Positions 1-17,337 of a stretch of DNA of 45,812 nt are shown piece after piece. Every line of letters starts with the position of its first letter. Within the stretch, counting starts at the first letter, position 1. The notes under the pieces are model-generated. The model ran no database searches. It worked only from the letters and a program-made list of their open reading frames with translations, and was not told the origin of the DNA. Position numbers and translations under genes: made by a program. The stretch is from NCBI GenBank assembly GCA_947504275.1, contig CANNHA010000005.1, positions 1 through 45,812 on the forward strand. The letters run 5' to 3'. Source of the stretch: Flavobacteriales bacterium (GTDB lineage Bacteria > Bacteroidota > Bacteroidia > Flavobacteriales_D > Sanyastnellaceae).

Positions 1-486
1 AGAGAATTTCAAATAAAAATTGTTGGGACAGAAACGACCCATAAATCAGTGTGTGGGCTTGACCTTAAAATTCATGGATTGATTGAAGAGTGCAATGATG
101 CAGATCTTGTATTTTTTGGAAGTGGACCTGGGACAAGAAACGTTATCAAGGATGACCTTTATTTAAAACGCTTTAACCTAGACCCAACCCGACAAATCAT
201 TTGTTCAATGTGTTCAGGTGCTCTAATAATTGCAGCACTTGGACATCTAACTGGACTTTCCGCAACAACTTATCCGACTGCCTTTGAAGCTTTGAAAAAT
301 TATGGTGTTGACGTTCTTGAAGACAAACATTTGGTAACACATGGTAACGTTGGGACAGCAGCCGGTTGTTTGGCAGCAGTTGACTTGGTTGGTTGGGCAA
401 TTGAAAAACTTTACGACAAAAAAATTAGGGAGGACGTTATTGCATCTGTTTTACCCATTGGACAAGGACAAGTATGCATATACTAG
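1..486 (+). CDS. DJ-1/PfpI family protein, 3' part (5' end outside window)
   Basis: The frame is open from the first base, so the N-terminus lies outside the window; the GTG at 49 is an internal codon rather than a convincing start. The visible ~161 residues form the C-terminal two thirds of a class I glutamine-amidotransferase-like fold. A FGSGPGTRN segment is followed by the nucleophile elbow with Cys in ICSMCSGALI and then a conserved GLSATTYP stretch. DJ-1/PfpI relatives include isonitrile hydratase-like enzymes, glyoxalases and stress proteins; the substrate cannot be told from here. An attC-like repeat follows the stop by about 20 bp, which suggests that this gene is the cargo of a gene cassette. 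The family is fairly certain, the function is not. Confidence 0.8.
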   Translation, partial: REFQIKIVGTETTHKSVCGLDLKIHGLIEECNDADLVFFGSGPGTRNVIKDDLYLKRFNLDPTRQIICSMCSGALIIAALGHLTGLSATTYPTAFEALKNYGVDVLEDKHLVTHGNVGTAAGCLAAVDLVGWAIEKLYDKKIREDVIASVLPIGQGQVCIY

Positions 487-505: not shown

Positions 506-640
506 ACATAACAGCACATTGGCAATAGGCGGGGTTTCGTCTCCGTTTGACAGTTTTGTGGTAGCCGAAAGTTCAGTTCTCCGAACAAACTTTTGTGCTG
601 AAAAGCCCGCCCATCGCCAATCTGCAAACCGTTATAGGGC
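506..640 (+). repeat. attC-like imperfect inverted repeat, copy 1
   Basis: The left arm carries AACAGCAC, ATTGGC and GGCGGGG. The right arm carries CCCGCC, GCCAAT, CTGC and CGTTATAGG. The arms are complementary (ATTGGC with GCCAAT, GGCGGG with CCCGCC, AAC with GTT), with extra unpaired bases on the right side. The interior holds two TTTTGTG motifs and GACAGTTTTGTGGT, both shared with copy 2. The asymmetry, the terminal AAC/GTT pair and the position just after a stop codon fit an integron attC site. The GTTATAGG end matches the GTTRRRY consensus only in part, so it is called attC-like. Confidence 0.6.
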
Positions 641-654
641 ATTTTAAGACGACA

Positions 655-1260
655 ATGAAACAGACAATTTACGTATTGACCTTGACGCTTCTGACTTTAA
701 CGAGTGCTTTCGGACAGACGGTAAATGACAGCATCTATAACAGTTGGTGGGCAAACAAGGACAAATCAATTTTTCAGACAGTTGACAAAGGAACATTTTC
801 TGGGACAACCAACGGATACATTCAACTTAAAGATGGGAAAGACACCCTTGTTCTCGACTTTCAAGGCAGCAAGACGACTTTGACTGTTACACACGACCCA
901 AACGAGATGTATGACAAAAGCACAAAGAAATATTCTACACAAACGACAAGTGGCAAGACAGCTTTGACTTATGAAATTTATGCTCTTGCAAATATTTTAA
1001 CTATCAACTTAAACGGTTTGACATATCGCATTGGCATAATTGACGGTGCTTCTGATATGCCAATTCTCGGACTGAATTTTAATTACTGCTCCGAAAAAGG
1101 AACTGAGTTCTTGACTTTATTAGTAACAAAACCTTTAGAACTAACAACGACAAGAGAATTAATGAAGCAGAAAAATATCACCTATCCCGAAGCACAAAAA
1201 TTGGCAAAGACAATTACAATTCTTCCGGGTTCGACACTTATTTTGACAATTAAGAAATGA
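655..1260 (+). CDS. Small secreted protein of unknown function (probable cassette cargo)
   Basis: The ATG at 655 was chosen over an upstream in-frame alternative start at 595. The protein then begins MKQTIYVLTLTLLTLTSAFG, a clear signal peptide with likely cleavage after AFGQ, whereas the longer form would lie inside the attC-like repeat. The product has 201 residues with no recognised catalytic motif. The mature part is rich in Thr, Lys and Asp, with alternating hydrophobic residues suggesting beta structure. The gene sits exactly between two attC-like repeats, as expected for a mobile cassette. Aspartate is written mostly GAC here, while genes after 2200 prefer GAT, which is consistent with a foreign origin. 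No function can be assigned. Confidence 0.7.
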   Translation: MKQTIYVLTLTLLTLTSAFGQTVNDSIYNSWWANKDKSIFQTVDKGTFSGTTNGYIQLKDGKDTLVLDFQGSKTTLTVTHDPNEMYDKSTKKYSTQTTSGKTALTYEIYALANILTINLNGLTYRIGIIDGASDMPILGLNFNYCSEKGTEFLTLLVTKPLELTTTRELMKQKNITYPEAQKLAKTITILPGSTLILTIKK

Positions 1261-1293
1261 CAACACTAACAACAGACGCGAAAAGAAAAACGC

Positions 1294-1428
1294 CCTATAA
1301 CAGCACCTACCCAAAAGGCGGGGTTTCGTGTTCCAAAGACAGTTTTGTGGTTAATCAATCATTAGTTTTTCAAAATAAGTTTTGTGGTAAAAGTCCCGCC
1401 CTTCGGGTAGCTGCGAAACGTTAAAGGC
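1294..1428 (+). repeat. attC-like imperfect inverted repeat, copy 2
   Basis: It has the same architecture, length and orientation as the copy at 506-640. The left arm reads AACAGCAC, CTACCC, GGCGGGG and the right arm CCCGCC, GGGTAG, CTGC, CGTTAAAGG. The six-base arm segment differs completely from copy 1 (CTACCC instead of ATTGGC), yet its partner has changed to match (GGGTAG instead of GCCAAT). Pairing is therefore kept while sequence is not. The interior keeps GTTTCGT, GACAGTTTTGTGGT and a second TTTTGTGGT. The next start codon is only about 10 bp after the repeat. Confidence 0.6.
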
Positions 1429-1437
1429 AATTAAAAT

Positions 1438-2169
1438 ATGACCAGAAAAGCAATCATGATTGGTTCCCCAGGGCCGAAGAATTCTGCTAATTATTTAAAG
1501 GGCGTTGACACAGATTTACATCACTTTGTCAGTTTTCTAAAATCACCCATTGGTGGTTCTTGGGAAGATCCCGAAATAGAGGATTTATCTGATTACACAC
1601 TCGAAAATTTGATTGAAATAATCCAAGAAATAAATACAGACTATTTGCTTGTATATTTTTCCGGCCATGGTTATCAATATTTAAAAGAAACGATTATTGC
1701 ATTAAACGACACCGAAACCATTTCCATTACCAATCTAATTTCGTTCATAAAAGCATCCAAAGCACTCATCATTTTAGACACCTGCAGAAAAGGCATCCAT
1801 GATGAATACGAATCTTTCACAGGTCCCGAATCTTTATCCTTTAAATCAACTTTGAACCAACCCAATACTCAAGAAAAATTCATGAACATCCTCGCTGAAA
1901 GTCATGATGGCATTGCAATAGCTTATGCATGCTCTGTCGGAGAAATCAGTAACGATACAGAATTAGGAGGTGACTATACTTATTCATTGCTCAAAACATC
2001 TCTGGAATGGTATGCGAACCAAAATAATGAAAGCGTATTATCAATAAATGGTGCTAATGATTTGACTCATCAGTATTTGAAATTCAAATCAAATTTCAAT
2101 CAGAATCCACAACTGGTCAGCGTAAAAGGCAAAGAAGAAAGGCTGAATTTCCCATTTGCCATAAAATAG
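1438..2169 (+). CDS. Caspase-family (C14) peptidase, orthocaspase-like
   Basis: The protein is a compact 243-residue single-domain caspase fold. The catalytic dyad is visible: His77 in YFSGHGY after a hydrophobic strand, and Cys116 in ILDTCRKG. The N-terminal strand (RKAIMIGSPGP) and the following YLKGVDTDLHHF helix match the p20 subunit of metacaspases. There is no signal peptide, membrane segment or added sensor domain, so it would act in the cytoplasm. Such enzymes usually cleave after Arg or Lys; partners and substrates are unknown. It starts about 10 bp after the second attC-like repeat, so it may be a third cassette, but no repeat follows it. Alternatively it is a resident gene next to the array. 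The family call is firm. Confidence 0.85.
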   Translation: MTRKAIMIGSPGPKNSANYLKGVDTDLHHFVSFLKSPIGGSWEDPEIEDLSDYTLENLIEIIQEINTDYLLVYFSGHGYQYLKETIIALNDTETISITNLISFIKASKALIILDTCRKGIHDEYESFTGPESLSFKSTLNQPNTQEKFMNILAESHDGIAIAYACSVGEISNDTELGGDYTYSLLKTSLEWYANQNNESVLSINGANDLTHQYLKFKSNFNQNPQLVSVKGKEERLNFPFAIK

Positions 2170-5362: not shown

Positions 5363-6733
5363 TTATTCAATGTTATCCTTAAACTGATTCTCTAATTTCT
5401 GTCTCAACCAATCCAATGACACCATGATACTTCCCTTCTTCTTAGCCTTAACACTACTATTAGTTTCTTCAAGCTCAACCTTGGTTTCTGTTTGAACATC
5501 ATTCATTTCCACTTTGATTTCCTCAACCACTTCTTCAATCAGAGGCGCTGAAACCGTTTCTTGAAACAAGTTGCGTTGCACTTCATTGTTCTCGTAGGTC
5601 ATCAGCAATCCAACACCGGTAGACAATATTGGTGTCAATTTAGTAGCATCATCCTTAGAAGAAGATACGTGGAAATGCGGATATCCTACGCGGCAATGCA
5701 TACCTGTATGGTATTCCACCAACTGCTTCATGTGTCGCAATTGCGCACCACCACCCGTCATCACTATTCCACCAATCAACTGCTTGGAAAATCCAGATGA
5801 AACGATTTCACCATGCACGTAATCCAAAATCTCTTCCATACGTGCTTGAATAATCTGCGTCAAACGCAATGTAGATATCTCTCTTCTTGGGTGTCCAGCC
5901 AACCCGGGAATAGCAATAACTGCATTCTGGTTCACCGCTTCCTCCAAAGCAAACCCATGATTCACCTTTAATACTTCCGCATACTTTGGTAATATATAAC
6001 AACCATTTCTGATGTCTTCCGTGATGATGTTTCCACCAAAAGGAATTACTGCAGTATGTCTAATTATTCCGTCATGGAAAATCGCGATGTCCGTTGTACC
6101 ACCACCAATATCAACCAATGCAACTCCAGCTTCCATCTCCTCATCGGTCAATACAGCAGCTGAACTCGCCAATGGCTCCAACGTCAATTTGGCAACTTCC
6201 AAACCAGCCTTTCTAACACAACGGTAAATGTTGTTGATCTGAGAAATCTGTCCTGTGATCACATGGAAATTGGCCTTCATTCTGATGCCAGCCATTCCAA
6301 TTGGATCCTTGATTCCCGACTCTTGATCAACTGTAAAATCCTGAGGCAAAGCATGAATAATGTCTTCACCGGGTGCCACTGGGATGCGGCGAATGTCCTG
6401 TGACATGATATCAATATCTACCTGTGATATCTCCTCATCCATACTGCTTCTTGTGCGCGTAGCTTGATGCTGGGTACTGCGTATGTGCTGCCCAGCGATA
6501 CCTACGTTCACAATTTTAATATCGACGTTGCTTTTCTCAGAAGCCTGACTCACGGCCTTTTTAATGGACTCTACTGTGCGGTCTATATTGACAACTACGC
6601 CACGTTGTACACCAACACTTTCTGATTTGCCGATGCCCAAAATTTCTACTTTTCCATGCTCATCGTAACGTCCTACGATACATGCAATCTTGGTGGTTCC
6701 AATGTCCAGTCCTACGATAATTTCGTTTTTCAT
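5363..6733 (-). CDS. ftsA: Cell division protein FtsA
   Basis: FtsA is the actin-like protein that tethers FtsZ filaments to the membrane and recruits later divisome proteins. The 456 residues show the actin ATPase motifs: GLDIGTTKIACIVG (8-21, phosphate 1), DIGGGTTD (208-215, phosphate 2) and TGGGA (326-330, adenosine). The FtsA-specific 1C domain lies between, at about residues 85-165. After a charged linker rich in Glu and Val, the protein ends in an amphipathic helix (SIMVSLDWLRQKLENQF), the expected membrane-targeting sequence. It overlaps ftsQ by 4 bp. Its usual downstream partner ftsZ is absent, and a strong terminator follows instead. Confidence 0.97.
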   Translation of the reverse strand: MKNEIIVGLDIGTTKIACIVGRYDEHGKVEILGIGKSESVGVQRGVVVNIDRTVESIKKAVSQASEKSNVDIKIVNVGIAGQHIRSTQHQATRTRSSMDEEISQVDIDIMSQDIRRIPVAPGEDIIHALPQDFTVDQESGIKDPIGMAGIRMKANFHVITGQISQINNIYRCVRKAGLEVAKLTLEPLASSAAVLTDEEMEAGVALVDIGGGTTDIAIFHDGIIRHTAVIPFGGNIITEDIRNGCYILPKYAEVLKVNHGFALEEAVNQNAVIAIPGLAGHPRREISTLRLTQIIQARMEEILDYVHGEIVSSGFSKQLIGGIVMTGGGAQLRHMKQLVEYHTGMHCRVGYPHFHVSSSKDDATKLTPILSTGVGLLMTYENNEVQRNLFQETVSAPLIEEVVEEIKVEMNDVQTETKVELEETNSSVKAKKKGSIMVSLDWLRQKLENQFKDNIE

Positions 6734-7539
6734 GGTGCGATATAATTTCTTTTAATTCCTACAATTTGATTGATAAAACGTGCGTCCAAAACTTCATATT
6801 GATCTAAATCTATTTTGGGCAACGTTTTGCTATAAAACACAAAAAGGTTCTTCATCTTGATGTCAAAATTTTGACTATCCCCTATCCATATCTCTTGATT
6901 TCCCATCCGTGGAATAATGCGCCAACCTACTGGACCTTTCCAATAAACCTGGTCTATTTGCGCATTCCACAATGGGTGAGACTGAATCGATTTGGCCATC
7001 CAGTAGATACTTTGATGAAAAGCATTGGCTTGATCATCCTTAAAAATATTTTCAGATAAAAGCGGGGCTCTGAAGTCACCCAAAAAAATAGGGACGTCAG
7101 CCAAAGCGCCTTTCTTTAAAGGCAATAAAGCACCTTCCTCGTCCAAATAAAACTGTGACCCTGACTGATCCATGATCAATGCAACAGGCTTGCGTAATGA
7201 AACGTCAATTTTGCAACGACCATCCAACGTCTGATAAACTTGAGCTTTTCTAACGTATGGATTGGTTAACAATGATCTTCTCATGGCTGCCAAATCCATT
7301 TGACCTCCAACCTTACCCATTAATCCACCATTGGACTCCTCACAGATTTGCTGAATCTCCAAAGCATCTAAAAATGCAAATCCTGAATCAGCCTCCTGAA
7401 TATTCACAGATACCTGCCAGCATTTCAATTGACCTTGGTGTGCATTGGAAAAAGCCATTAGGGTAATAACAGTCGAACACAATAGCAGATAAAGCAGGAC
7501 TATCCCCACTTTCTTCCATGCTATTTTCTTCTGTACCAT
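6730..7539 (-). CDS. ftsQ: Cell division protein FtsQ/DivIB family
   Basis: The bitopic divisome protein has 269 residues. A short cytoplasmic start (MVQKKIAWKK) is followed by one membrane segment (about 11-30, VGIVLLYLLLCSTVITLMAF) and a periplasmic domain. The POTRA-like part includes NPYVRKAQVYQTLDGRCKIDV and the typical RKPVALI. The C-terminal beta domain ends with YEVLDARFINQIVGIKR. FtsQ links early divisome proteins to the FtsL/FtsI machinery. Sequence conservation is low in this family, so the call also rests on its place between murC (2-bp gap) and ftsA (4-bp overlap). Confidence 0.92.
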   Translation of the reverse strand: MVQKKIAWKKVGIVLLYLLLCSTVITLMAFSNAHQGQLKCWQVSVNIQEADSGFAFLDALEIQQICEESNGGLMGKVGGQMDLAAMRRSLLTNPYVRKAQVYQTLDGRCKIDVSLRKPVALIMDQSGSQFYLDEEGALLPLKKGALADVPIFLGDFRAPLLSENIFKDDQANAFHQSIYWMAKSIQSHPLWNAQIDQVYWKGPVGWRIIPRMGNQEIWIGDSQNFDIKMKNLFVFYSKTLPKIDLDQYEVLDARFINQIVGIKRNYIAP

Positions 7540-7541
7540 TT

Positions 7542-8942
7542 TTACTTTTCTCTTTGTTTTAATTGCACTGCTAAAGGTTTTACCAGCTGATCAATATCAC
7601 CAGCTCCCAACACCAAAACCACCTCCCAATCCGCAGGTATTCCAATCTCCAATAATTCACTTTTTTCCAATAACTTTTTATCCAAAAGCGAAATCTTATC
7701 AAGTATCAATTGTGAATCAATTCCTGGTATGGGCAATTCTCTTGCCGGATAAATAGGCAGTAAAATCAAGCCATCCAGGGCCGACAAGGAAGAAACAAAT
7801 CCTTCTAAAAAATCCCTGGTCCGAGAAAAAAGATGGGGTTGAAAAATGCCTCCTATTTTTTTTCCTGGAAACAACATTCTTGCGCTAGTGATTGCCGCAT
7901 TTAATTCTGTGGGATGATGGGCGTAATCGTCAATCATCACCACACCTTCTTCATCTAAGATTCGTTCAAACCTTCGCCCAACTCCTTTGAAGGCTGACAT
8001 CGCTTTTTTTATGTCGCTTGGTTCACCTCCGCAGGCCAATGCAATGGTGATGGCCGCCACCGCATTCTCTACGTTGTGTCGCCCAGATAATCCGCAAACT
8101 ATTCCATCAATGTTGATTGCTCCTTTGTAATCAAATACAAACTTTCCATCTTGAACAACAATATTCTCCGCTCGACATGCCACTGATTCTTGGTCTGTAA
8201 TTCCATAACGAACAATCTCAGTATGATCTGTCAATCCAGCAAAATCAGTGGCCACTTCATATTGTACAAGAAGATGTCCGCTCGGTTTGATCTTCTTGGA
8301 GAAATCCTGAAACCCCTTTTCAAATGTGGCTGCATCACCATATATATCCAAGTGATCGGGATCAACCGCTGTTACCACAGCCCACTCGGGCGTTAATGTT
8401 AAAAAACTTCTATCAAACTCATCCGCCTCTACCACTACCCAATCACTTTCCGCCAATACCAAGTTGGATTTAAAATTGGCCGAAATACCGCCCAAAAAAG
8501 CGTTGACTTTAAAACCAACTTCATTCAAAAGAAATGCAATCATCGATGAAGTAGTTGTCTTGCCATGGGTACCTGCAACGGCAATGGTGTGGTACTGCTC
8601 CGTGATTTTCCCCAAAAGAACACTGCGCTTCATCATGGGAAATCCGTTTTGCAGAAAATAGTTCTTCAACAAACTATCTTGAGGAATGGCAGGTGTATAA
8701 CAGACCCATATCTTTTCTGCGGGAGTTAACCGAATCAATGAAGGCAAGTGCAGTAGATCATCTTCATAAGTAATGTCAATACCTTCTTGTTCCAATTGCT
8801 GCGTCAATGGGGTACTGGTGCGATCATATCCCATAACGATATGACCCTTGGCGTGAAAGAATCGGGCTAAGGCTGACATGCCAATTCCACCAATTCCTAA
8901 AAAATAAAAAATGGTTTCTTTGCTCCAGTGCTTATGCTCCAT
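7542..8942 (-). CDS. murC: UDP-N-acetylmuramate--L-alanine ligase
   Basis: MurC adds L-alanine to UDP-MurNAc, the first step of stem-peptide assembly, using ATP in the cytoplasm. The 466 residues show the Mur ligase order: N-terminal UDP-binding Rossmann part with FLGIGGIGMSALARFF (14-29), ATP loop GTHGKTT (124-130), VVEADEFDRSF and a DPDHLDIYGD segment, then the C-terminal domain with MIDDYAHHPTE and FQPHLFSRT. The length is normal. It overlaps murG by 11 bp. Confidence 0.97.
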   Translation of the reverse strand: MEHKHWSKETIFYFLGIGGIGMSALARFFHAKGHIVMGYDRTSTPLTQQLEQEGIDITYEDDLLHLPSLIRLTPAEKIWVCYTPAIPQDSLLKNYFLQNGFPMMKRSVLLGKITEQYHTIAVAGTHGKTTTSSMIAFLLNEVGFKVNAFLGGISANFKSNLVLAESDWVVVEADEFDRSFLTLTPEWAVVTAVDPDHLDIYGDAATFEKGFQDFSKKIKPSGHLLVQYEVATDFAGLTDHTEIVRYGITDQESVACRAENIVVQDGKFVFDYKGAINIDGIVCGLSGRHNVENAVAAITIALACGGEPSDIKKAMSAFKGVGRRFERILDEEGVVMIDDYAHHPTELNAAITSARMLFPGKKIGGIFQPHLFSRTRDFLEGFVSSLSALDGLILLPIYPARELPIPGIDSQLILDKISLLDKKLLEKSELLEIGIPADWEVVLVLGAGDIDQLVKPLAVQLKQREK

Positions 8943-10023
8943 AACAATCCTTCTTCAACTGGTTTACGATATCTGCACTTGCATTTGGCCTAGCCCATTG
9001 CTGCATATTCTTGATCATGAATGCCGAGTCAACATTTCCCTCCAACAAGTCTTTTAATGTTGACAACCACATTTCTGAAAGTGATTTCTCTCGAATCATC
9101 AATGCAGCTTTATCATTCACCAAAGCCATGGCATTGTGTGTCTGATGATCCTCTGAAACATAAGGTGATGGCACAAAAACAGTAGGCTTAGACACCAAGC
9201 ACAATTCTGAAACAGACATCGCACCAGCTCTGCTTACGATGATATCGGCTGCAGCATAGGCTTGGTGCATTTCATGAATAAATGGTCCAACCCATAATCC
9301 TGTTTTATCCTTCCATTTGTTTTGCGGCAAATAATTCTTTCCTGTTTGCCAAATCACCTGCACATTCAACTCCAACAACGCATCCAAATTGGCCTCCATG
9401 GTCTGATTCATCGCTCGTGCACCCAAACTACCACCCACCATCAAAATGGTTTTCTTTCCTTCTTGCAATCCAAAATGTGCCAATGCTTCTGACTTTGGAT
9501 TTCGATCATTGTCCCAAATAAAACGGATTGGATTTCCGGTTTGCATGATTTTCTCCTTCGGAAAAAAACGCTCCATACCTGGATAAGCTGTAAAAATGCG
9601 AGTTGCCTTTTTTGACAATATTTTATTGGTTACGCCAGCAAAAGAATTTTGCTCTTGGATAAAAATCTTTCTCCCTAAGGCATTAGCAGCCCATAATGTT
9701 GGACCACTGGCATATCCACCTACACCAATAACCGCATCGGGCTTGAACTTCCAAATCAGTTTAATAGCCAAAATCAAGCTCCAAAGAATCTTGAAAGGCA
9801 GCAACAAATTCTTCCAACTCAACTTTCGCTGGATTCCTGTTATGGGTAAGCCAACTATATTGTATCCGAATTGAGGAACCTTCTCCATTTCCATTCGACC
9901 CTTAGCCCCTACAAATAAAATCTGAACATTGGGATGCTGTCTTTCCAATTCCTGCGCAATAGCAATAGCGGGGAAAATATGCCCGCCTGTTCCACCACCT
10001 GATATGACTACTTTATTGAGCAT
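8932..10023 (-). CDS. murG: UDP-GlcNAc:lipid I GlcNAc transferase MurG
   Basis: MurG transfers GlcNAc from UDP-GlcNAc to lipid I on the inner face of the membrane, giving lipid II. The 363-residue GT28 protein starts with the glycine-rich loop SGGGTGGHIFPAIAIAQEL (8-26). GVGGYASGP and QEQNSFAGVTNKIL, both MurG signatures, follow. The C-terminal domain has MVGGSLGARAMN and the sugar-nucleotide site ADIIVSRAGAMSVSEL. It overlaps ftsW by 11 bp on one side and murC by 11 bp on the other, so coupled translation is likely. Confidence 0.97.
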   Translation of the reverse strand: MLNKVVISGGGTGGHIFPAIAIAQELERQHPNVQILFVGAKGRMEMEKVPQFGYNIVGLPITGIQRKLSWKNLLLPFKILWSLILAIKLIWKFKPDAVIGVGGYASGPTLWAANALGRKIFIQEQNSFAGVTNKILSKKATRIFTAYPGMERFFPKEKIMQTGNPIRFIWDNDRNPKSEALAHFGLQEGKKTILMVGGSLGARAMNQTMEANLDALLELNVQVIWQTGKNYLPQNKWKDKTGLWVGPFIHEMHQAYAAADIIVSRAGAMSVSELCLVSKPTVFVPSPYVSEDHQTHNAMALVNDKAALMIREKSLSEMWLSTLKDLLEGNVDSAFMIKNMQQWARPNASADIVNQLKKDCYGA

Positions 10024-11185
10024 GCTGAACCTCCGTTATGGGTTGTTCCTCTATAAATTGATCTTCATCTACTTCACCCTTCCCTCTGGTTACACTGATG
10101 ATCATGGCAATGGACAAACAAGTGAACAAAGTGGAAGTACCACCCAAACTAATCAAAGGCAGCGGCTGTCCTGTTGTGGGAAATAAGCTGACCGAGACCG
10201 ACATATTGATCAATGCTTGAATAACAATAATGGAAGACAATCCAAAGACCATCAATTGTCCAAAACGAGAAGGACAAGTCAACGCAGTTCGGACCGCTCT
10301 GAAATAAAAAATGAGGTAAACAAAAATCAACAATAATCCACCGAAGATCAATCCATACTCTTCAATGATAAAAGCATAAATCATATCAGAATAAGGGTGG
10401 GGCATAAAATTCCGAGAGGATCCTGTTCCGGGTCCTTTGGGAATCAATCCCCCTGAATAGATGGCATATTTGGCCAAATCCGCTTGATAGTTACCTTCTG
10501 CGTCACCTTCTACTTTGTTCAATATCCTATTCTTCCATGTGTCATAGCGAGGCAATACCTTTTCAGGTCCATACTCTCCAATTGCCACAACCATGGTTAA
10601 CAACAAACCCACACCTCCTATGATGGTCAATAAAAATTTCCAAGGATAGCCTGAAACAAGTAGCATTAAAAAACAAACCAAGCCCAGCATGGCACTGGTA
10701 GAAAAATTGGCTGGAAATATCAAACCACAAACGAAAGCGATGGGCAATACAATTGGCCAAAAAGTTCTTTTCCAATCACCAAATTCAGATTGACGCAGGG
10801 TGAGCATACGAGCCAAATAAACCAACAATACCACTTTGGCCAAATCACTTGTTTGAAAAGAAATCCCCAAACCCGGAATCTTTAACCAGCGATCTGCATT
10901 GTTAATGTTGGCACCATACAGAAGGGTTACGGCCAATAGTCCCACCGTAACCCAAATCAATAACTGAGAGAACTTAGAAAAATATCGGTAGTCAATGCGG
11001 TGCACCACAAGCATAATGGCCCATCCACCCAGTAGCATAACCATGTGTCTTCTCAGCACACCGAAACTACCCTCTGCATCTTTTCCCAAAGTTGAAATTC
11101 CGCTATAAACAGCAAGAATAGACACCACGGTCAGCAGCAATGCCACCATCCAGATAACCTTATCTCCTTTTAAATAGCGAAACAT
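10013..11185 (-). CDS. ftsW: SEDS glycosyltransferase FtsW
   Basis: FtsW polymerises lipid II into septal glycan together with the class B PBP FtsI. The protein has 390 residues and about ten membrane segments. SEDS signatures are NNADRWLKIPGLGISFQTSDLAKVVL written as shorter blocks: ADRWLKIPG and QTSDLAKV. GNYQADLAKYAIYSGG and GPGTGSSRNFMPHPYSDMIY mark the large periplasmic loop, and LPTTG-type FPTTGQPLPLISLGGTS lies near the end. The last ~25 residues form an acidic cytoplasmic tail. It follows murD by 11 bp; a RodA role is unlikely given the cluster position. Confidence 0.95.
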   Translation of the reverse strand: MFRYLKGDKVIWMVALLLTVVSILAVYSGISTLGKDAEGSFGVLRRHMVMLLGGWAIMLVVHRIDYRYFSKFSQLLIWVTVGLLAVTLLYGANINNADRWLKIPGLGISFQTSDLAKVVLLVYLARMLTLRQSEFGDWKRTFWPIVLPIAFVCGLIFPANFSTSAMLGLVCFLMLLVSGYPWKFLLTIIGGVGLLLTMVVAIGEYGPEKVLPRYDTWKNRILNKVEGDAEGNYQADLAKYAIYSGGLIPKGPGTGSSRNFMPHPYSDMIYAFIIEEYGLIFGGLLLIFVYLIFYFRAVRTALTCPSRFGQLMVFGLSSIIVIQALINMSVSVSLFPTTGQPLPLISLGGTSTLFTCLSIAMIISVTRGKGEVDEDQFIEEQPITEVQHAQ

Positions 11186-11196
11186 AATAAGAACAA

Positions 11197-12546
11197 TTAC
11201 AAACCTTTTACAGCCTTTTTAAATTGACGACCTCTATCTTCATAGTTGTCAAACAAGTCAAAACTTGCACATGCAGGAGACAATAAAACAGTATCACCTT
11301 CTTTGGCCAATTCATAAGCCACACGAACTGTATGCTCAGCATCGGTTGAATCAACAATGGTATCTACAACTTTTTCAAAAGCCTTTCTGATCTTGCTGCT
11401 GTCCTTGGTCAAACAAATGATGGCCTTAACACGCTTAGAAACCAATGGCAACAATTCATTGTAATCATTTCCTTTATCCTGACCACCTGCAACCCAAATG
11501 ATTGGGGTATTGATGCTCTCCAAAGCATACCATGCTGAATTGACATTGGTAGCCTTACTGTCGTTGATAAAGCTAACGCCATGAACCTTGGCAACAAACT
11601 CCAAACGGTGTTCTACGTTTTCGAAGTTTTCTAAACTTTCGCGAACTACTTCCTTGCGCAAGTCAAGAATTCTGGCTGCTACTCCTGCTGCCATTGAGTT
11701 GTTCAAATTGTGCTTTCCTTTCAAAGCTAATGAAGTGATTTTCATAATTACTGGGTTTTTATGGATGTTGATGTTGATGTTTTCATTTTGAACAAAGGCA
11801 CCTTCGAACTCACTTCCCTCTGGAATGTCATTTAGAGTAAAAGGAATCATCGTTGCACCTATTGTATTTTGAGACAAATACTTTTGAGTCTCTGGATCGT
11901 CTTGACTATAGATGAAATAATCAGCTGAAGTTTGATTTTGAGCGATTCTAAACTTGGAGGCCACATAATTCTCCATCTTGTATTCATAGCGATCCAAATG
12001 ATCCGGTGTGATATTGGTTAGAATGGCTATGTCCGCTTTGAACTGCATCATACCGTCCAACTGGAAGCTGCTCAGTTCTATAACAAACCAATCGGGCTGC
12101 TCACCAATCAACTGTCTCGCAAAACTCTTTCCTACGTTTCCACCCAATCCTACTTTCACTCCTGCGTTCTGCAAAATGTGGTAAGTGAGCAAGGTGGTAG
12201 TTGTTTTTCCGTTTGATCCTGTGATACAAATGGTCTTTGCCTTGTTGTATGGAAATGCAAATTCCATTTCTGAAACTACAGGAATTCCTTTTGCCGTAAG
12301 CGATTGAACAATGGCTACTTTCTCGGGAATACCAGGACTCTTAACAACAATGTCAGCATTCAATATCAATGCTTCTGTATGCTGACCTTGCTCGTAAGCA
12401 ATGCCATTGGCTTCCATCTCCGCCACGTACTCCTGCTTGATCATTCCCTTATCAGAAACAAAAACGTCAAAGCCATGATGCAAGCCCAACAGTGCAGTGC
12501 CTGTTCCGCTTTCACCTCCACCCAATATGACCAGACGCTTTTTCAT
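11197..12546 (-). CDS. murD: UDP-N-acetylmuramoyl-L-alanine--D-glutamate ligase
   Basis: MurD adds D-glutamate to UDP-MurNAc-L-Ala. The ATG at 12546 was chosen because it overlaps the mraY stop by one base (TAATG) and gives the family's normal N-terminus, [20 protein letters not shown]. An upstream ATG in the same frame would lie deep inside mraY. The 449-residue product has the UDP-binding domain, the ATP loop GSNGKTTT (110-117), NITPDHLDRYEYKMENYVASK, and the C-terminal domain with HRLEFVAKVHGVSFINDSKATN and LLSPACASFDLFDNYEDRG. Confidence 0.96.
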   Translation of the reverse strand: MKKRLVILGGGESGTGTALLGLHHGFDVFVSDKGMIKQEYVAEMEANGIAYEQGQHTEALILNADIVVKSPGIPEKVAIVQSLTAKGIPVVSEMEFAFPYNKAKTICITGSNGKTTTTLLTYHILQNAGVKVGLGGNVGKSFARQLIGEQPDWFVIELSSFQLDGMMQFKADIAILTNITPDHLDRYEYKMENYVASKFRIAQNQTSADYFIYSQDDPETQKYLSQNTIGATMIPFTLNDIPEGSEFEGAFVQNENININIHKNPVIMKITSLALKGKHNLNNSMAAGVAARILDLRKEVVRESLENFENVEHRLEFVAKVHGVSFINDSKATNVNSAWYALESINTPIIWVAGGQDKGNDYNELLPLVSKRVKAIICLTKDSSKIRKAFEKVVDTIVDSTDAEHTVRVAYELAKEGDTVLLSPACASFDLFDNYEDRGRQFKKAVKGL

Positions 12547-13784
12547 TATCTGGTCTTTAAAGTGATGATGGTAACTACAGCCAAAATGATTCCTACAATC
12601 CAAAAGCGTGATACGATCTTCGCCTCATGCATTCCCTTCTTTTGAAAATGGTGATGCAACGGAGACATCAAGAAAATTCTTCTTCCTTCTCCGTACTTCT
12701 TCTTGGTGTACTTGAAGTAAGCAACCTGAATAATTACGGATAAGTTTTCAATTAAAAAGATTCCGCACAAAACTGGAATCAGAAGTTCCTTTCTGATGGC
12801 AATAGAAAATGTAGCAATGATTCCACCCAAGGCCAAACTACCCGTGTCGCCCATGAAAACCTGAGCAGGATAGGAGTTGTACCACAAGAATCCAACACAT
12901 GAACCCACAAATGCAGCAATGAAAATGGTCAATTCACCACTGCGCGGGATGTACATGATATTTAAATAATCTGCAAAAATGTAGTTACCTGATACGTATG
13001 CCAAGATGGCCAACGTCACCCCGATAATCGCGCTTGAACCCGCCGCCAATCCATCGATTCCGTCCGTGATATTGGCACCATTGGACACCGCAGTAACAAT
13101 CAATATCACCACCAAAGTGAACACAATCCAAAGCGACCAAGCATTGCGCCATGCAGCAGGCAACAACCAACTGTAGTCAAACTCATTGTCCTTGATAAAA
13201 GGAATGGTTGTTTTGATGTTTTTGTTCTCTTCCCAATTGGCAACAGCGCTAGACTGACCGGTCTGCTCTACCGTTTCGGATGTTGTGGCTTCATGACCTA
13301 TCCTTTCTTTGATGGTCACGGTGGGATTCCAATACAACATAGAAGCGACGATGACACCCGCGCCAATTTGACCAATGATCTTAAACTTCCCTGCCAATCC
13401 TTCCTTGTCCTTCTTAAAGACTTTGATGTAATCATCCATGAAACCGATGATCCCCAACCATACTGTTGCAATCAATAAAGTCTGGATGTAAACATTGGTC
13501 AAATCAGCAAACAACAATGTTGGAATAATAATGGACATAAGAATGATTAAACCTCCCATTGTAGGTGTTCCAGTCTTCTGCATTTGTCCATCCAATCCTA
13601 AATCACGGATGGTTTCACCTACTTGCTTTCTGCGCAACCAACCAATCAAGTACTTTCCCATCACCATGGATATTACCAGAGATACGATGACTGCCGCAGC
13701 CGCTCTGAAACTCAAGTATTGAATCAATCTTGCTCCTGCAAAATCAAAATGCAAATCCAAATATTTGATAAGATGATAAATCAT
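12546..13784 (-). CDS. mraY: Phospho-MurNAc-pentapeptide translocase MraY
   Basis: MraY joins phospho-MurNAc-pentapeptide to undecaprenyl phosphate in the membrane, making lipid I. Family motifs are KTGTPTMGG, the catalytic Asp pair Asp117/Asp118 in [32 protein letters not shown] and [11 protein letters not shown], with about ten membrane segments. At 412 residues it is longer than the ~360 of E. coli. The extra length includes a charged loop at about residues 155-205 ([19 protein letters not shown] and onward), an insertion known from Bacteroidota MraY proteins. It overlaps murE by 4 bp and murD by 1 bp. Confidence 0.97.
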
Positions 13785-15244
13785 GATTCTTGCTGTTTTA
13801 ATATTTCTTGTACCATTTGAAAATCATCAAATGGATACTTTACTCCTTTTATCTCTTGGTACTTTTCGTGACCCTTTCCCGCAATCAAAACGATATCGCC
13901 GTGTTGTACTATAGAACAAGCCGCTGCTATGGCTTCATCGCGATTCACCATGGTCAATACTTTTCTTTTTTCAATGGGATCCAAACCCTGAACAATCTCC
14001 TGGATAATCTCCTTAGGCTCTTCGCTTCGGGGATTGTCACTGGTGACAATTACTTTGTTTGCCTTTGCACAAGCAATCTGTCCCATTACTGGTCGCTTGG
14101 CTGCATCTCTATCTCCCCCACAACCCATGACACAAATCAATTGCTCATTTCCACTCCGAATGGTATTGATGGTATCCAAGACATTGGACAAAGCATCTGG
14201 TGTATGCGCATAGTCAACAATTGCTATAATACCTGAATGAGATCTGAAATATTGAAACCTACCTTCTGGTGCTTTTAATGTGCTTAAAACAGTCAAGACA
14301 CTCATTTCATCCCATCCCAATTGCATGGCAATTCCGTATACAGCCAAAAGATTATAAGCATTGAACTCTCCAATCAATTGAGTGTATACTTCATGGTGCT
14401 GAATGGTCAAAGACAAACCAGAAAGTGCATTCTCTATGATGCGCGCTCTATAATTGGCCATCGACTGCAATGCATAAGTATAAACCTTACCCTTGCAGTT
14501 TTGCGTCATCACTTCAGCATGACGATCATCCGCATTAACAACAGCAAAAGCCTTGCTACCCAATCCGTCAAACAACAGCTTCTTAGCGTGGATGTATGCA
14601 TTGAAAGTTCCATGATAATCCAAATGATCATGCGTAATGTTGGTATACGCAGCACCACGAAACTGAAGTCCTGAAGTACGTCTTTGATCCAAAGCATGTG
14701 AAGAAACTTCCATGAAAACATGCGTGCATCCAGCTTCCACCATTTGTCCCAATAACTTTTGCAACTCCACCGCATTGGGTGTTGTGTGCGTAGCCGGAAT
14801 CAATTGTGTGTTGACTTTATTGACAACTGTAGACAACAAACCAGTCTTATGCCCCATGGCCATCGACAACTCATAACACAATGTGGCCACTGTGGTTTTT
14901 CCATTGGTTCCCGTTACACCAATCACAGACAATTTCTCTGATGGATTGCCGTAATAATTGGCAGCCAATATGCCCAATGACTCAGCCGAATCACTCACCT
15001 TAACATAGGTAACTTCTGCGCTCAATGCGGCAGGCAATTGTTCGCAAAGGATACAATTGGCTCCCTTCTCAATGGCCTTTTCAATAAATAAATGCCCATC
15101 AACAGCGCTACCCTTGATGGCAACAAAAAGGAAGAATGGTCTAACATCCCTAGAATCCATGGTGATGCCTTCTGTGGCAATGTGCGTGCTACCCACCACT
15201 TCGTCAATGCGCACTTTGTACAATATGTCTTTCAACAATTTCAT
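13781..15244 (-). CDS. murE: UDP-MurNAc-L-Ala-D-Glu--meso-diaminopimelate ligase
   Basis: MurE adds the third stem-peptide residue. The 487 residues contain the ATP loop GTNGKTT (112-118), [35 protein letters not shown] and the C-terminal [10 protein letters not shown] and CGGDRD blocks. The specificity motif DNPR in [11 protein letters not shown] indicates meso-diaminopimelate rather than lysine, so the cell wall should be of the usual Gram-negative type. [11 protein letters not shown] closes the domain. It overlaps both ftsI and mraY by 4 bp. Confidence 0.97.
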
Positions 15245-17337
15245 TGCAATTGAAGATGTATGGTTGAACCTTTTTTAACTGCAGTACCTGGAAGAACTCC
15301 TTGACCAACCACTCTGCCTTTTCCAGTTACTTTATAATGATATCCCGCTTGATGCAAGGCTTGCAGAGCATCCCTCATTCCCATCCCCATGCAATTGGGA
15401 ACAATTCCCTCTCTTACATTCATGGCTGTCAAGGAAGCAGACTGCTCGTCTCTGGATAAATAACTCCAATCTGACCCGTTGTCTTTTGGGATAACTGGTA
15501 AACCAAATGCAGTCATCAAAGCATGCGAATTCTTTACCATTCCGGGACGGAGACTGGGCATGATGGAAGGACCTGTCGCTACCCAATTGTTACCATGAAT
15601 ATCCAAAGTGGTGGCATAGATTTTATCTGCCAACTCTCTAAATACAGGAGCCGCAACTTTAGAGGCATAATAAACGCCTCTTGGATCTTCTATGACAACA
15701 ATGCAAGAATACTTGGGCTTATCTGCTGGGAAATAACCTACAAAAGAGGCTCGGTAACGATTGAGCTGATAGGCACCGTTTTTCCACAACCAACTGGTCC
15801 CTGTTTTTCCTGCCACCTTATATGGAGACTGCTTAAAAGCTTCATAGGCGGTGCCGCCTGGCTCACCCACTCCTTCCATCATCTTGCGACATTGCTCGAT
15901 TGTATGATCAGAAGCAATATTGTCTCTTAACACAACAGCATCAACACTTGAAATTTGACCGTTGGATTGCTTTATTCCTTGAACAAAAGATGGGCGCACC
16001 ATCTTTCCACCATTGGCAACTGCGTTGTAAAAAGCTAAAATCTGTATTGGGGCAAATGCCACCTCATAACCAATAGACATCTGCGTTAAACTATTGGCAC
16101 TCCAATTCTTATCTTTAACAGAAGCATAAACACTAGGTCTACCCTCTCCTTTTAGATCTATTCCGAGTGAACTTCCTAAACCAAACCCATTCAGATAATC
16201 CAAAAACTTTTGGGGCTTTGATGCAAATGACTTTCTTACTCCCAAAGCTGTTCCGACATTGGAAGATTTTGCAAAAACATCCTTGATGGAGATGCTTCCA
16301 TATCCTCCTTGGTGACTATCATGAAGAACCACACCATTGAAATTGCGTTCACCGTTTCCTGTATTGACCGTATCATCAATGGAGATACTTCCCTCCTCCA
16401 ATGCAGCCATCAAACTCATCAGCTTCATTGTAGATCCTGGCTCTACAGATTGACTAATGGCGTAGTTCATCAATTCAGAATAGGTACTGTCTTTGGTGCG
16501 ACCCAAATTGGCAATTGCCCTCACATAGCCCGTTTCTACTTCCATTAATATTGCGCAACCCCATTCACCATTTAATGAATCCAATTGCTTGCGCAAAGCA
16601 TGCTCCGCTACGTCTTGTAAATGCACATCTATGGTTGCGATGATATCCAAACCTGGAATGGGCTCTTGAATGAACTCATCTGTCATTGGCTTCCAAACAC
16701 TTCCCGGAATCAATTCTTGCAATTGTTTCCCTGGTCGCCCAGACAATATTGAATCATAAGACAACTCCAAACCAACATTATCCGACTCTCTGAACAAACC
16801 AATGGTCCTTGATGCCAAACTTCCATATGGCTTCACCCGCTTCTTGGTTTCTTCAAAAACAAAACCCGTGCGATTCCTTCCCTTCTTTACATAACTCAAA
16901 CGTTTAAAAGCATTCAACTCTTGAAAAGTTATATTCTTGACCAAAAGTTCATACCTGGATTTCTTGCGAACAGCATTGTCCAATAAGCGACCAAAATCAC
17001 GTTTAGACCTCTTAGGATCTATCACATGCAACACAATAGCCAATGAATCTTTGGCATCATCAAATGCCTCCTTGTCTTGCATTGCCTGCGTATCCCATCG
17101 CAATGCATACTCAGAAACAGTGGTCGCCAACAAACTGCCATCAGAGGACCAAATCTGTCCGCGCGTTGGCTCTATCGACCTCACCTTACTGGTGAAAGAG
17201 GAAGCCAAAGCATTGGCATTTTCATCTGGGATAAACTGAAGCATGGCAGCCTTGCCTATAATGGAAGCGCCTACCAATACCAAAGCCACAAAAATGACAT
17301 AGGTCCACGTGCTATTTATTTTAACCGTGCTGCTCAT
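15241..17337 (-). CDS. ftsI: Class B penicillin-binding protein FtsI with PASTA domain
   Basis: This is the septal transpeptidase working with FtsW. The 698 residues comprise one membrane anchor (about 11-32), a PBP dimerisation domain (RSIEPTRGQIWSSDGSLLA, 53-71), and a transpeptidase domain with Ser302 in STMK, SSN at 358-360 and KTG at 511-513. A C-terminal PASTA domain fills about 643-698 (VPNCMGMGMRDALQALHQAG). A PASTA domain on the division PBP is unlike E. coli but usual in Bacteroidota. It overlaps the FtsL-like gene and murE by 4 bp each. Confidence 0.96.
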   Translation of the reverse strand: MSSTVKINSTWTYVIFVALVLVGASIIGKAAMLQFIPDENANALASSFTSKVRSIEPTRGQIWSSDGSLLATTVSEYALRWDTQAMQDKEAFDDAKDSLAIVLHVIDPKRSKRDFGRLLDNAVRKKSRYELLVKNITFQELNAFKRLSYVKKGRNRTGFVFEETKKRVKPYGSLASRTIGLFRESDNVGLELSYDSILSGRPGKQLQELIPGSVWKPMTDEFIQEPIPGLDIIATIDVHLQDVAEHALRKQLDSLNGEWGCAILMEVETGYVRAIANLGRTKDSTYSELMNYAISQSVEPGSTMKLMSLMAALEEGSISIDDTVNTGNGERNFNGVVLHDSHQGGYGSISIKDVFAKSSNVGTALGVRKSFASKPQKFLDYLNGFGLGSSLGIDLKGEGRPSVYASVKDKNWSANSLTQMSIGYEVAFAPIQILAFYNAVANGGKMVRPSFVQGIKQSNGQISSVDAVVLRDNIASDHTIEQCRKMMEGVGEPGGTAYEAFKQSPYKVAGKTGTSWLWKNGAYQLNRYRASFVGYFPADKPKYSCIVVIEDPRGVYYASKVAAPVFRELADKIYATTLDIHGNNWVATGPSIMPSLRPGMVKNSHALMTAFGLPVIPKDNGSDWSYLSRDEQSASLTAMNVREGIVPNCMGMGMRDALQALHQAGYHYKVTGKGRVVGQGVLPGTAVKKGSTIHLQLQ

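Follow-up and report, generated by a model that had tools for sequence, protein, structure and literature searches.

The window analysed here is a 45,812-nucleotide stretch of DNA from a Flavobacteriales bacterium (family Sanyastnellaceae; assembly GCA_947504275.1, contig CANNHA010000005.1, positions 1 to 45,812). Two repeats within it, at 508-634 and 1297-1423, are very probably attC-type recombination sites marking the end of a gene-cassette array, which appears to belong to a Bacteroidota integron-like system. A first-pass annotation of the window had taken them for the edge of such an array, and comparison with related genomes supports this view: sites of this family lie in same-strand arrays, the head of a cassette pairs with its tail, cassettes are reshuffled exactly at GTT, and a recombinase with an attI-like site is found in relatives. 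Taken together, the sequences carry the marks of constraint on folding, circular-cassette logic, a GTT crossover, reshuffling, an integrase and attI at the heads of arrays, and resistance cassettes on plasmids.

In the mechanism we propose, a tyrosine recombinase whose gene immediately precedes the array would cut at G|TT and join a circular cassette through its attC, which most likely takes the form of a hairpin of the bottom strand, to attI or to another attC. Genes would thereby be captured, stacked in one orientation and excised again. We infer that this recombinase is the acting enzyme and that its substrate is single-stranded hairpin DNA of the bottom strand.

Two folded sites and the cassette between them

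Both repeats lie on the plus strand, are 127 nt long, align without gaps and have the ends ATAAC...CGTTA. Their place and shared orientation were annotated correctly, and the repeats are real, but their length had been put at about 135 bp, which is too long for the core. Site 1 (508-634) matches the covariance models R1 and R2 at 143 and 131.5 bits, respectively, and forms the tail of an upstream cassette truncated by the contig edge; from T632 onwards the sequence is part of the next cassette. Site 2 (1297-1423; 157.5 and 137.4 bits) is the tail of a complete cassette. Each closely follows a gene, as had been noticed, with site 1 located 22 nt past the stop at 486 and site 2 located 37 nt past the stop at 1260. 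The internal motifs reported for both copies (GACAGTTTTGTGGT and a second TTTTGTG) are present, as are the AAC/GTT ends with extra bases on one side; the spacer between core and stem measures 1 nt on the left and 5 nt on the right. The stem consists, in order, of GCA, a C.C mismatch, six variable pairs, two A.C mismatches enclosing two pairs, and GGCGGG/CCCGCC.

The arm that differs between the copies (ATTGGC/GCCAAT versus CTACCC/GGGTAG) retains its pairing, as first described. The same genome has a third copy of the site, close to the end of contig C17, and across the three copies all 63 of 63 pair cells pair, with five pairs altered on both sides. Five such two-sided changes were reached by 4 of 500 shuffles, and slid controls gave 0-1 pairs. 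Among 86 sites from related genomes, 94.5% of cells are paired and the covariation score is 0.624, compared to 0.142 ± 0.009 for shuffled and 0.02-0.074 for slid controls; this alignment was fitted to the proposed structure, and its counts thereby lean towards that structure. The pairing and covariation of the sites are not the product of chance.

The two strands of the sites do not fold equally well. For site 2, the bottom strand gave a z score of -2.94 versus +0.18 for the top strand, and the bottom strand of site 1 is also the better folded. This bias extends to 86 of 102 sites (Wilcoxon p=4e-11) and is lacking in non-site control segments. In addition, one stem position (A527 opposite C612 in site 1, A1316 opposite C1401 in site 2) is A in 108/108 sites and faces C in 105/108, although the flanking pairs vary freely. 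An A.C mismatch on the top strand corresponds to a G.T wobble on the bottom strand, and position 7 of the stem formed by the cassette ends likewise sets A against C. Because the bottom strand folds better and the invariant A.C becomes G.T there, the bottom strand is likely to be the strand used. No Rfam family matched the sites at gathering score, and site 1 had no match in the phage records searched. A strict sequence pattern of the site also returned no match in the bacterium's own genome, the pattern being too strict.

The complete cassette spans 632-1420 on the plus strand, with inferred crossovers at G631|T632 and G1420|T1421. It contains an open reading frame (655-1260) for a 201-amino acid protein that begins like a signal peptide (MKQTIYVLTLTLLTLTSAFGQT...) and matches no Pfam family. 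A 15-nt inverted repeat overlooked in the earlier annotation, 631-645 and 1287-1301, constitutes the cassette's head (GTTATAGGGCATTTT) and tail (AAAACGCCCTATAAC). These are 93% complementary over 15 nt, with a single A/C mismatch interrupting the pairing; at the ends themselves, head GTTATAGGGC is complementary to the cassette's own tail GCCCTATAAC. Since the two ends of a cassette meet only in its circular form, this complementarity is what circularisation at G|TT would require, as in integrons. As judged from its ends, the segment 632-1420 is a true cassette.

The same rule was evaluated in 75 cassettes from the fetched arrays. Heads match their own tails at 72-80% for positions 1-5 and at 68-69% for positions 8-9; random pairs reach about 30%, and the heads lying immediately past the sites reach 31-48%. 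In total, 289 of 375 head/tail comparisons match, versus 147 ± 12 when heads are permuted within arrays (maximum 199 in 2000 permutations). Independent named genomes behave similarly, with 4.33 of 5 positions matching versus 1.83 of 5.

Arrays, integrases and attI-like sites in Bacteroidota

More copies were sought in the bacterium's own genome and across the phylum, as the first-pass annotation had advised, and were found in same-strand arrays beside different genes. With covariance model R2, built from sites of this kind, 164 of 395 Bacteroidota genomes (42%) in 92 of 171 genera proved to carry one or more sites at E no higher than 1e-4. Within each array, all sites lie on one strand, and their lengths range from 53 to 181. 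In the complete genome G194, 31 or more sites are spread, with gaps, over about 110 kb. Short forms of 53-90 nt were seen alternating with the 127-nt form in a single array (L059 3174-3263, L060 11400-11452, L045 3550-3621 and others). Repeats always beside the same genes, or accompanied by a transposase or known as a family of miniature inverted-repeat transposable elements (MITEs), had been named as grounds for abandoning the cassette interpretation. Neighbours in fact change from copy to copy, and no transposase accompanies the family as a whole.

Rearranged cassettes place the junctions precisely. G194 has five copies of an 846-bp cassette that are 100% identical to one another, each with other neighbours upstream and downstream, and on both sides the sequence switches at GTT. 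A 912-bp unit shared by two arrays of G178 is 97% identical and bounded by the cut points of its sites. Within the window's own genus, contigs G000:C17 and G002:C71 share the flank past the last site (93% over 9.1 kb) and diverge shortly before the site. The junctions of recombined cassettes thus fall at GTT; by analogy, the exact phosphodiester would be the one between G and TT. GTT itself is kept, and the consensus GTTRRRY is satisfied in 6 of 99 sites, where 9.6 would be expected from composition.

Several sites of the G194 array are occupied, exactly at CG^TTA, by a 1.7-kb insertion sequence (IS) encoding a 524-amino acid DUF772/DDE_Tnp_1_6 transposase (L048 1930-3644 and three more places). 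Classical integrons have known attC-targeting ISs, which it resembles. The repeat of about 1.7 kb in this array had been considered as a recurring cassette and was rejected, as it is this IS. Immediately past the last site of the C17 array lies a ParD/ParE-like pair, recognised by sequence (L003 8310-8924, minus strand).

A search with the integron-integrase profile TIGR02249 revealed a distinct group of tyrosine recombinases next to the arrays. In named genomes carrying this recombinase, which include Arundinibacter roseus, Algoriphagus ornithinivorans, Flavobacterium aciduliphilum, Cyclobacterium, Zunongwangia mangrovi, Algibacter onchidii and Aquiflexum, 34 of 36 site matches lie downstream of the integrase and on the same strand. 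The integrase gene is usually oriented as the cassettes are, and all site matches at E below 0.02 in this search fell in Bacteroidota loci. These relatives also support placing the host in Bacteroidota, since its site and integrase families are the ones present in named genomes of that phylum.

The array recombinases align with TIGR02249 positions 2-178 and 239-315, without the stretch between, and score 190-226 bits, under the profile's cut-off of 265 bits. Where both motifs are readable, the distance from KGxKDR to HxLRH is 65-70 residues in these proteins versus 107 in true IntIs. The missing insert of about 40 residues is the IntI-specific additional (I2) domain around patch III. This domain has been described as necessary for activity (PMC9668308; PMC7790495); it is held to enable single-strand recombination, no other protein has been reported to contain it, and IntI1 is abolished when it is deleted (PMC7790495). 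A tree of 93 proteins separates the array proteins of Bacteroidota, which form one clade (support 96/95), from the IntIs (100/100), with Bacteroidota Xer proteins as a third clade; the tree was rooted by midpoint only, and many members of the array clade have no site in view.

The structure predicted for the Algoriphagus protein (pLDDT 86, pTM 0.57) was matched by Foldseek best to the DNA-bound integron integrase 2a3v (E 1e-17), followed by archaeal XerA. A second aligner placed archaeal Xer first (Z 22.5 versus 21.1). The N-terminal 75 residues form a small alpha/beta domain, whose best Foldseek match is a weak one to the HARP domain of SMARCAL1 (4o66; E 0.036, probability 0.89); one relative has a Pfam match to HARP (PF07443) below cut-off (E 0.012). 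HARP domains act at branched DNA. The HARP-like domain, present in most array integrases, is an attractive candidate for recognising the hairpin in place of I2. It is absent from the integrases of the window's own genus and therefore cannot be the sole replacement for I2. The invariant G.T of the bottom strand is the other candidate. We infer that one or both of these features take over the role of the I2 helix in hairpin recognition. Integrases L063, L115 and L122 have long N-terminal extensions with apparently repeated HARP-like domains. Related I2-less recombinases were also seen at Alphaproteobacterial and plasmid loci (L150-L190), where no site of this family is nearby; these may be IS91-associated accessory recombinases.

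A conserved block follows the integrase stop codon and ends in GTT, where the first cassette starts. This attI-like site reads approximately TATAAACRA|GTT and mostly lies 37-181 bp after the stop; in the window's genus it takes the form ...TTATACAA..TGCGTATACTATAAT|GTTA. At 10 of the 15 named loci, the sequence starting with the attI GTT matches the reverse complement of the first cassette's tail at 9/9 positions.

The advice to look for intI to the left of the window's array was answered in part: a tyrosine recombinase heads arrays in relatives, but the copy in the bacterium's own genome lies with its attI on another contig, C134, apart from the window's array. This protein (L093 4679-5542) reads NLLRHS for HLLRHS, which replaces the His of HxxR with Asn; the congeners G001 and G006 have His. 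Because of this substitution, the own-genome integrase may be inactive and the window's array may be frozen. The first unit after this attI is a cassette of about 130 bp with a head/tail match (L093 about 5639-5770), too small for a usual gene. Another copy of the attI, without integrase, is present on the minus strand of C17 (L003 about 10150-10230), beside what appears by eye to be the 3' end of a tmRNA gene, for which ARAGORN made no call. The attI copies on C17 and C134 may represent two platforms, or one of them a remnant.

The genes around the window's array can be assigned as follows. The upstream cassette carries a DJ-1/PfpI-family gene (1-486, plus strand; Pfam PF01965, E 6e-8), whose 5' end is cut by the contig edge. 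The first gene past the array encodes a caspase-like Peptidase_C14 protein (1438-2169, plus strand; PF00656, E 1e-15). It was considered as a further cassette and rejected: the congener contig G001:C44 has a copy, 88% identical by blastn, upstream of the integrase, and this homologue has no site beside it even with filters off. The caspase-like gene is therefore probably not a cassette gene. A division and cell-wall cluster on the minus strand at 5363-17337 (FtsA, Mur ligases, a MurG-like protein, FtsW, an MraY-like protein and a penicillin-binding protein) follows, and the array therefore adjoins core genes.

Probable resistance cassettes on plasmids

In Sphingobacterium faecium, Myroides albus, Bacteroides xylanisolvens and Flagellimonas marinaquae, plasmid-borne erm(F) is followed by a site resembling those of the window (covariance model scores 115-125 bits); on the B. 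xylanisolvens plasmid, an IS separates erm(F) from its site. The four plasmids are 97-99% identical up to ...GAGAACCGTT (...CCGTT), after which tet(X2), ere(D), aadS or a dihydrofolate reductase gene (dfr) comes next. The head/tail rule extends to these genes. Both the tet(X2) cassette (GTTATGTGCCATTTT / GTTATGTGCCGTTTT) and the aadS cassette (GTTGTACGACATAG / GTTGTACGACGTAG) have matching ends with the same A/C mismatch, the heads of the dfr and erm(F) cassettes match their tails likewise with one extra base, and a site is also present at the end of blaOXA-347. The plasmid-borne genes erm(F), tet(X2), aadS, dfr and blaOXA-347 resemble cassettes of the system described here.

On the Flagellimonas plasmid the set is complete: integrase, attI-like junction, erm(F), site, dfr and site. 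Its integrase is 44-48% identical to clade members and points away from the cassettes. On the Myroides plasmid, an integrase beside IS91 (L213) was considered as the platform integrase and rejected, its best match being a Firmicutes protein outside the Bacteroidota clade; it is probably an IS91 accessory recombinase. Related sites occur on a Salmonella IncC plasmid (L219) before estT and on an Acinetobacter indicus plasmid (L221) between estT and tet(X). This erm(F)/estT type of site was thus seen on Gammaproteobacterial plasmids beside estT-floR and tet(X).

The system would provide a mechanism for the assembly of erm(F), tet(X2), aadS, dfr and blaOXA-347 in Bacteroidota. Its putative resistance cassettes reside on plasmids of gut, aquatic and farm bacteria, and related sites are present on plasmids of Salmonella and Acinetobacter.

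Alternatives and known systems

The sites could in principle be normal attCs of an ordinary integron, here a cluster of attC sites lacking an integrase (CALIN), with the array recombinase a divergent but canonical IntI. The shared logic, the similar range of site sizes, the G|TT crossover and the preference for the bottom strand all agree with this explanation, as do the scores on TIGR02249 (integrase_gron) and the closest structure, 2a3v. We nevertheless regard it as improbable, given that the array integrases lack the insert, score under the profile's cut-off and form a separate clade, and that so few sites satisfy GTTRRRY. Moreover, IntegronFinder 2.0.5 reported none in a set of isolates of which the majority have an island bearing these resistance genes (PMC12382657), and current integron software appears to miss this system.

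Movement of the repeats by a transposase, as MITEs or other non-autonomous elements, would account for their terminal inverted arms and many copies per genome, and an IS does sit at several G194 sites. That IS is inserted into sites rather than bounded by them, however, and the mobile unit is a gene plus one site with junctions at GTT. Sites always share one strand within an array, and heads pair with the tails of their own cassettes, making this explanation extremely unlikely. There is equally little to recommend a transcription terminator or other RNA element after genes. Hairpins close behind stop codons would suit such a role, but no Rfam family matches, head/tail pairing and GTT junctions would be meaningless for a terminator, and the conserved A.C mismatch becomes a pair (G.T) only in the bottom strand, the template for these genes rather than the sequence of their transcript.

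Some observations weigh against an integron-like cassette array. The phylum survey counted sites, not integrases, and for part of the integrase clade (e.g. L124, L138, L152) no site was recognised in the vicinity. A few cassette pairs show no head/tail match, in some cases owing to an IS inside the site. Finally, activity in this strain may depend on another integrase copy, or its array may be a relic.

The first-pass annotation had suggested a lineage-specific integron or a related folded-substrate system. This suggestion holds, with the refinement that the recombinase is not a strict IntI and lacks the IntI-specific domain. On balance, we consider it probable that the arrays represent a second, phylum-wide class of integron in Bacteroidota, whose recombinase never gained the I2 helix and would handle folded single-stranded attC by means of a HARP-like domain that binds branched DNA and/or the bottom-strand G.T. 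Such a class could reflect a pre-I2 stage or an independent origin, and would have assembled the erm(F), tet(X), aadS and blaOXA-347 clusters. With integron anatomy this widespread around an I2-less recombinase, how folded single-stranded sites are used becomes directly testable.

The likeness to integrons is extensive. In both, a cassette consists of a gene plus one folded 3' site, crossover falls at G|TT, and heads and tails obey the circular-cassette rule; both have a tyrosine recombinase next to attI, same-strand arrays, a better-folded bottom strand and resistance cassettes on plasmids. The differences concern the recombinase, which here lacks the I2/additional domain and mostly has a HARP-like N-terminal domain, and the sites, which lack GTTRRRY (R') and RYYYAAC (R''), have a cassette-specific outer stem, and contain the invariant A.C mismatch (bottom-strand G.T) and a 1:5 asymmetric spacer. 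The integrase gene also usually shares the orientation of the cassettes, unlike in integrons.

XerA acts on a single chromosomal dif-like site. XerA-type recombinases (4a8e, 5hxy; NF040815) resemble the array integrases in their core and in the length of the K-to-H region, and NF040815 gives the best NCBIfam score for several of them; however, the proteins described here stand at the heads of cassette arrays, mostly with an additional N-terminal domain. The clade may belong to the integron-like subgroup of simple tyrosine recombinases, in which the insertion is not fully conserved according to the passages found of PMC8138268; those passages describe no cassette arrays for insertion-less members.

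A prior description of the system was not found in open PMC full texts, a search that left subscription journals and bioRxiv largely outside. Integrons outside Proteobacteria are known from Archaea (PMC9668308) and from Salinibacter ruber (PMC9024848), the latter being the one complete integron named in Bacteroidetes by the IntegronFinder 2.0 survey (PMC9024848). As in the arrays studied here, attI lies directly downstream of the integrase gene; in contrast, the archaeal IntIs have the IntI-specific additional domain (PMC9668308). The system has a recombinase at the array, an attI, folded and sequence-variable attC-like sites (predicted to form a bottom-strand hairpin), circularisable cassettes and a GTT junction, and it lacks the I2 domain of IntI and the GTTRRRY/RYYYAAC boxes. 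For these reasons we class it as an integron variant, one that, on the sequence evidence, works like an integron but falls outside the definition based on IntI.
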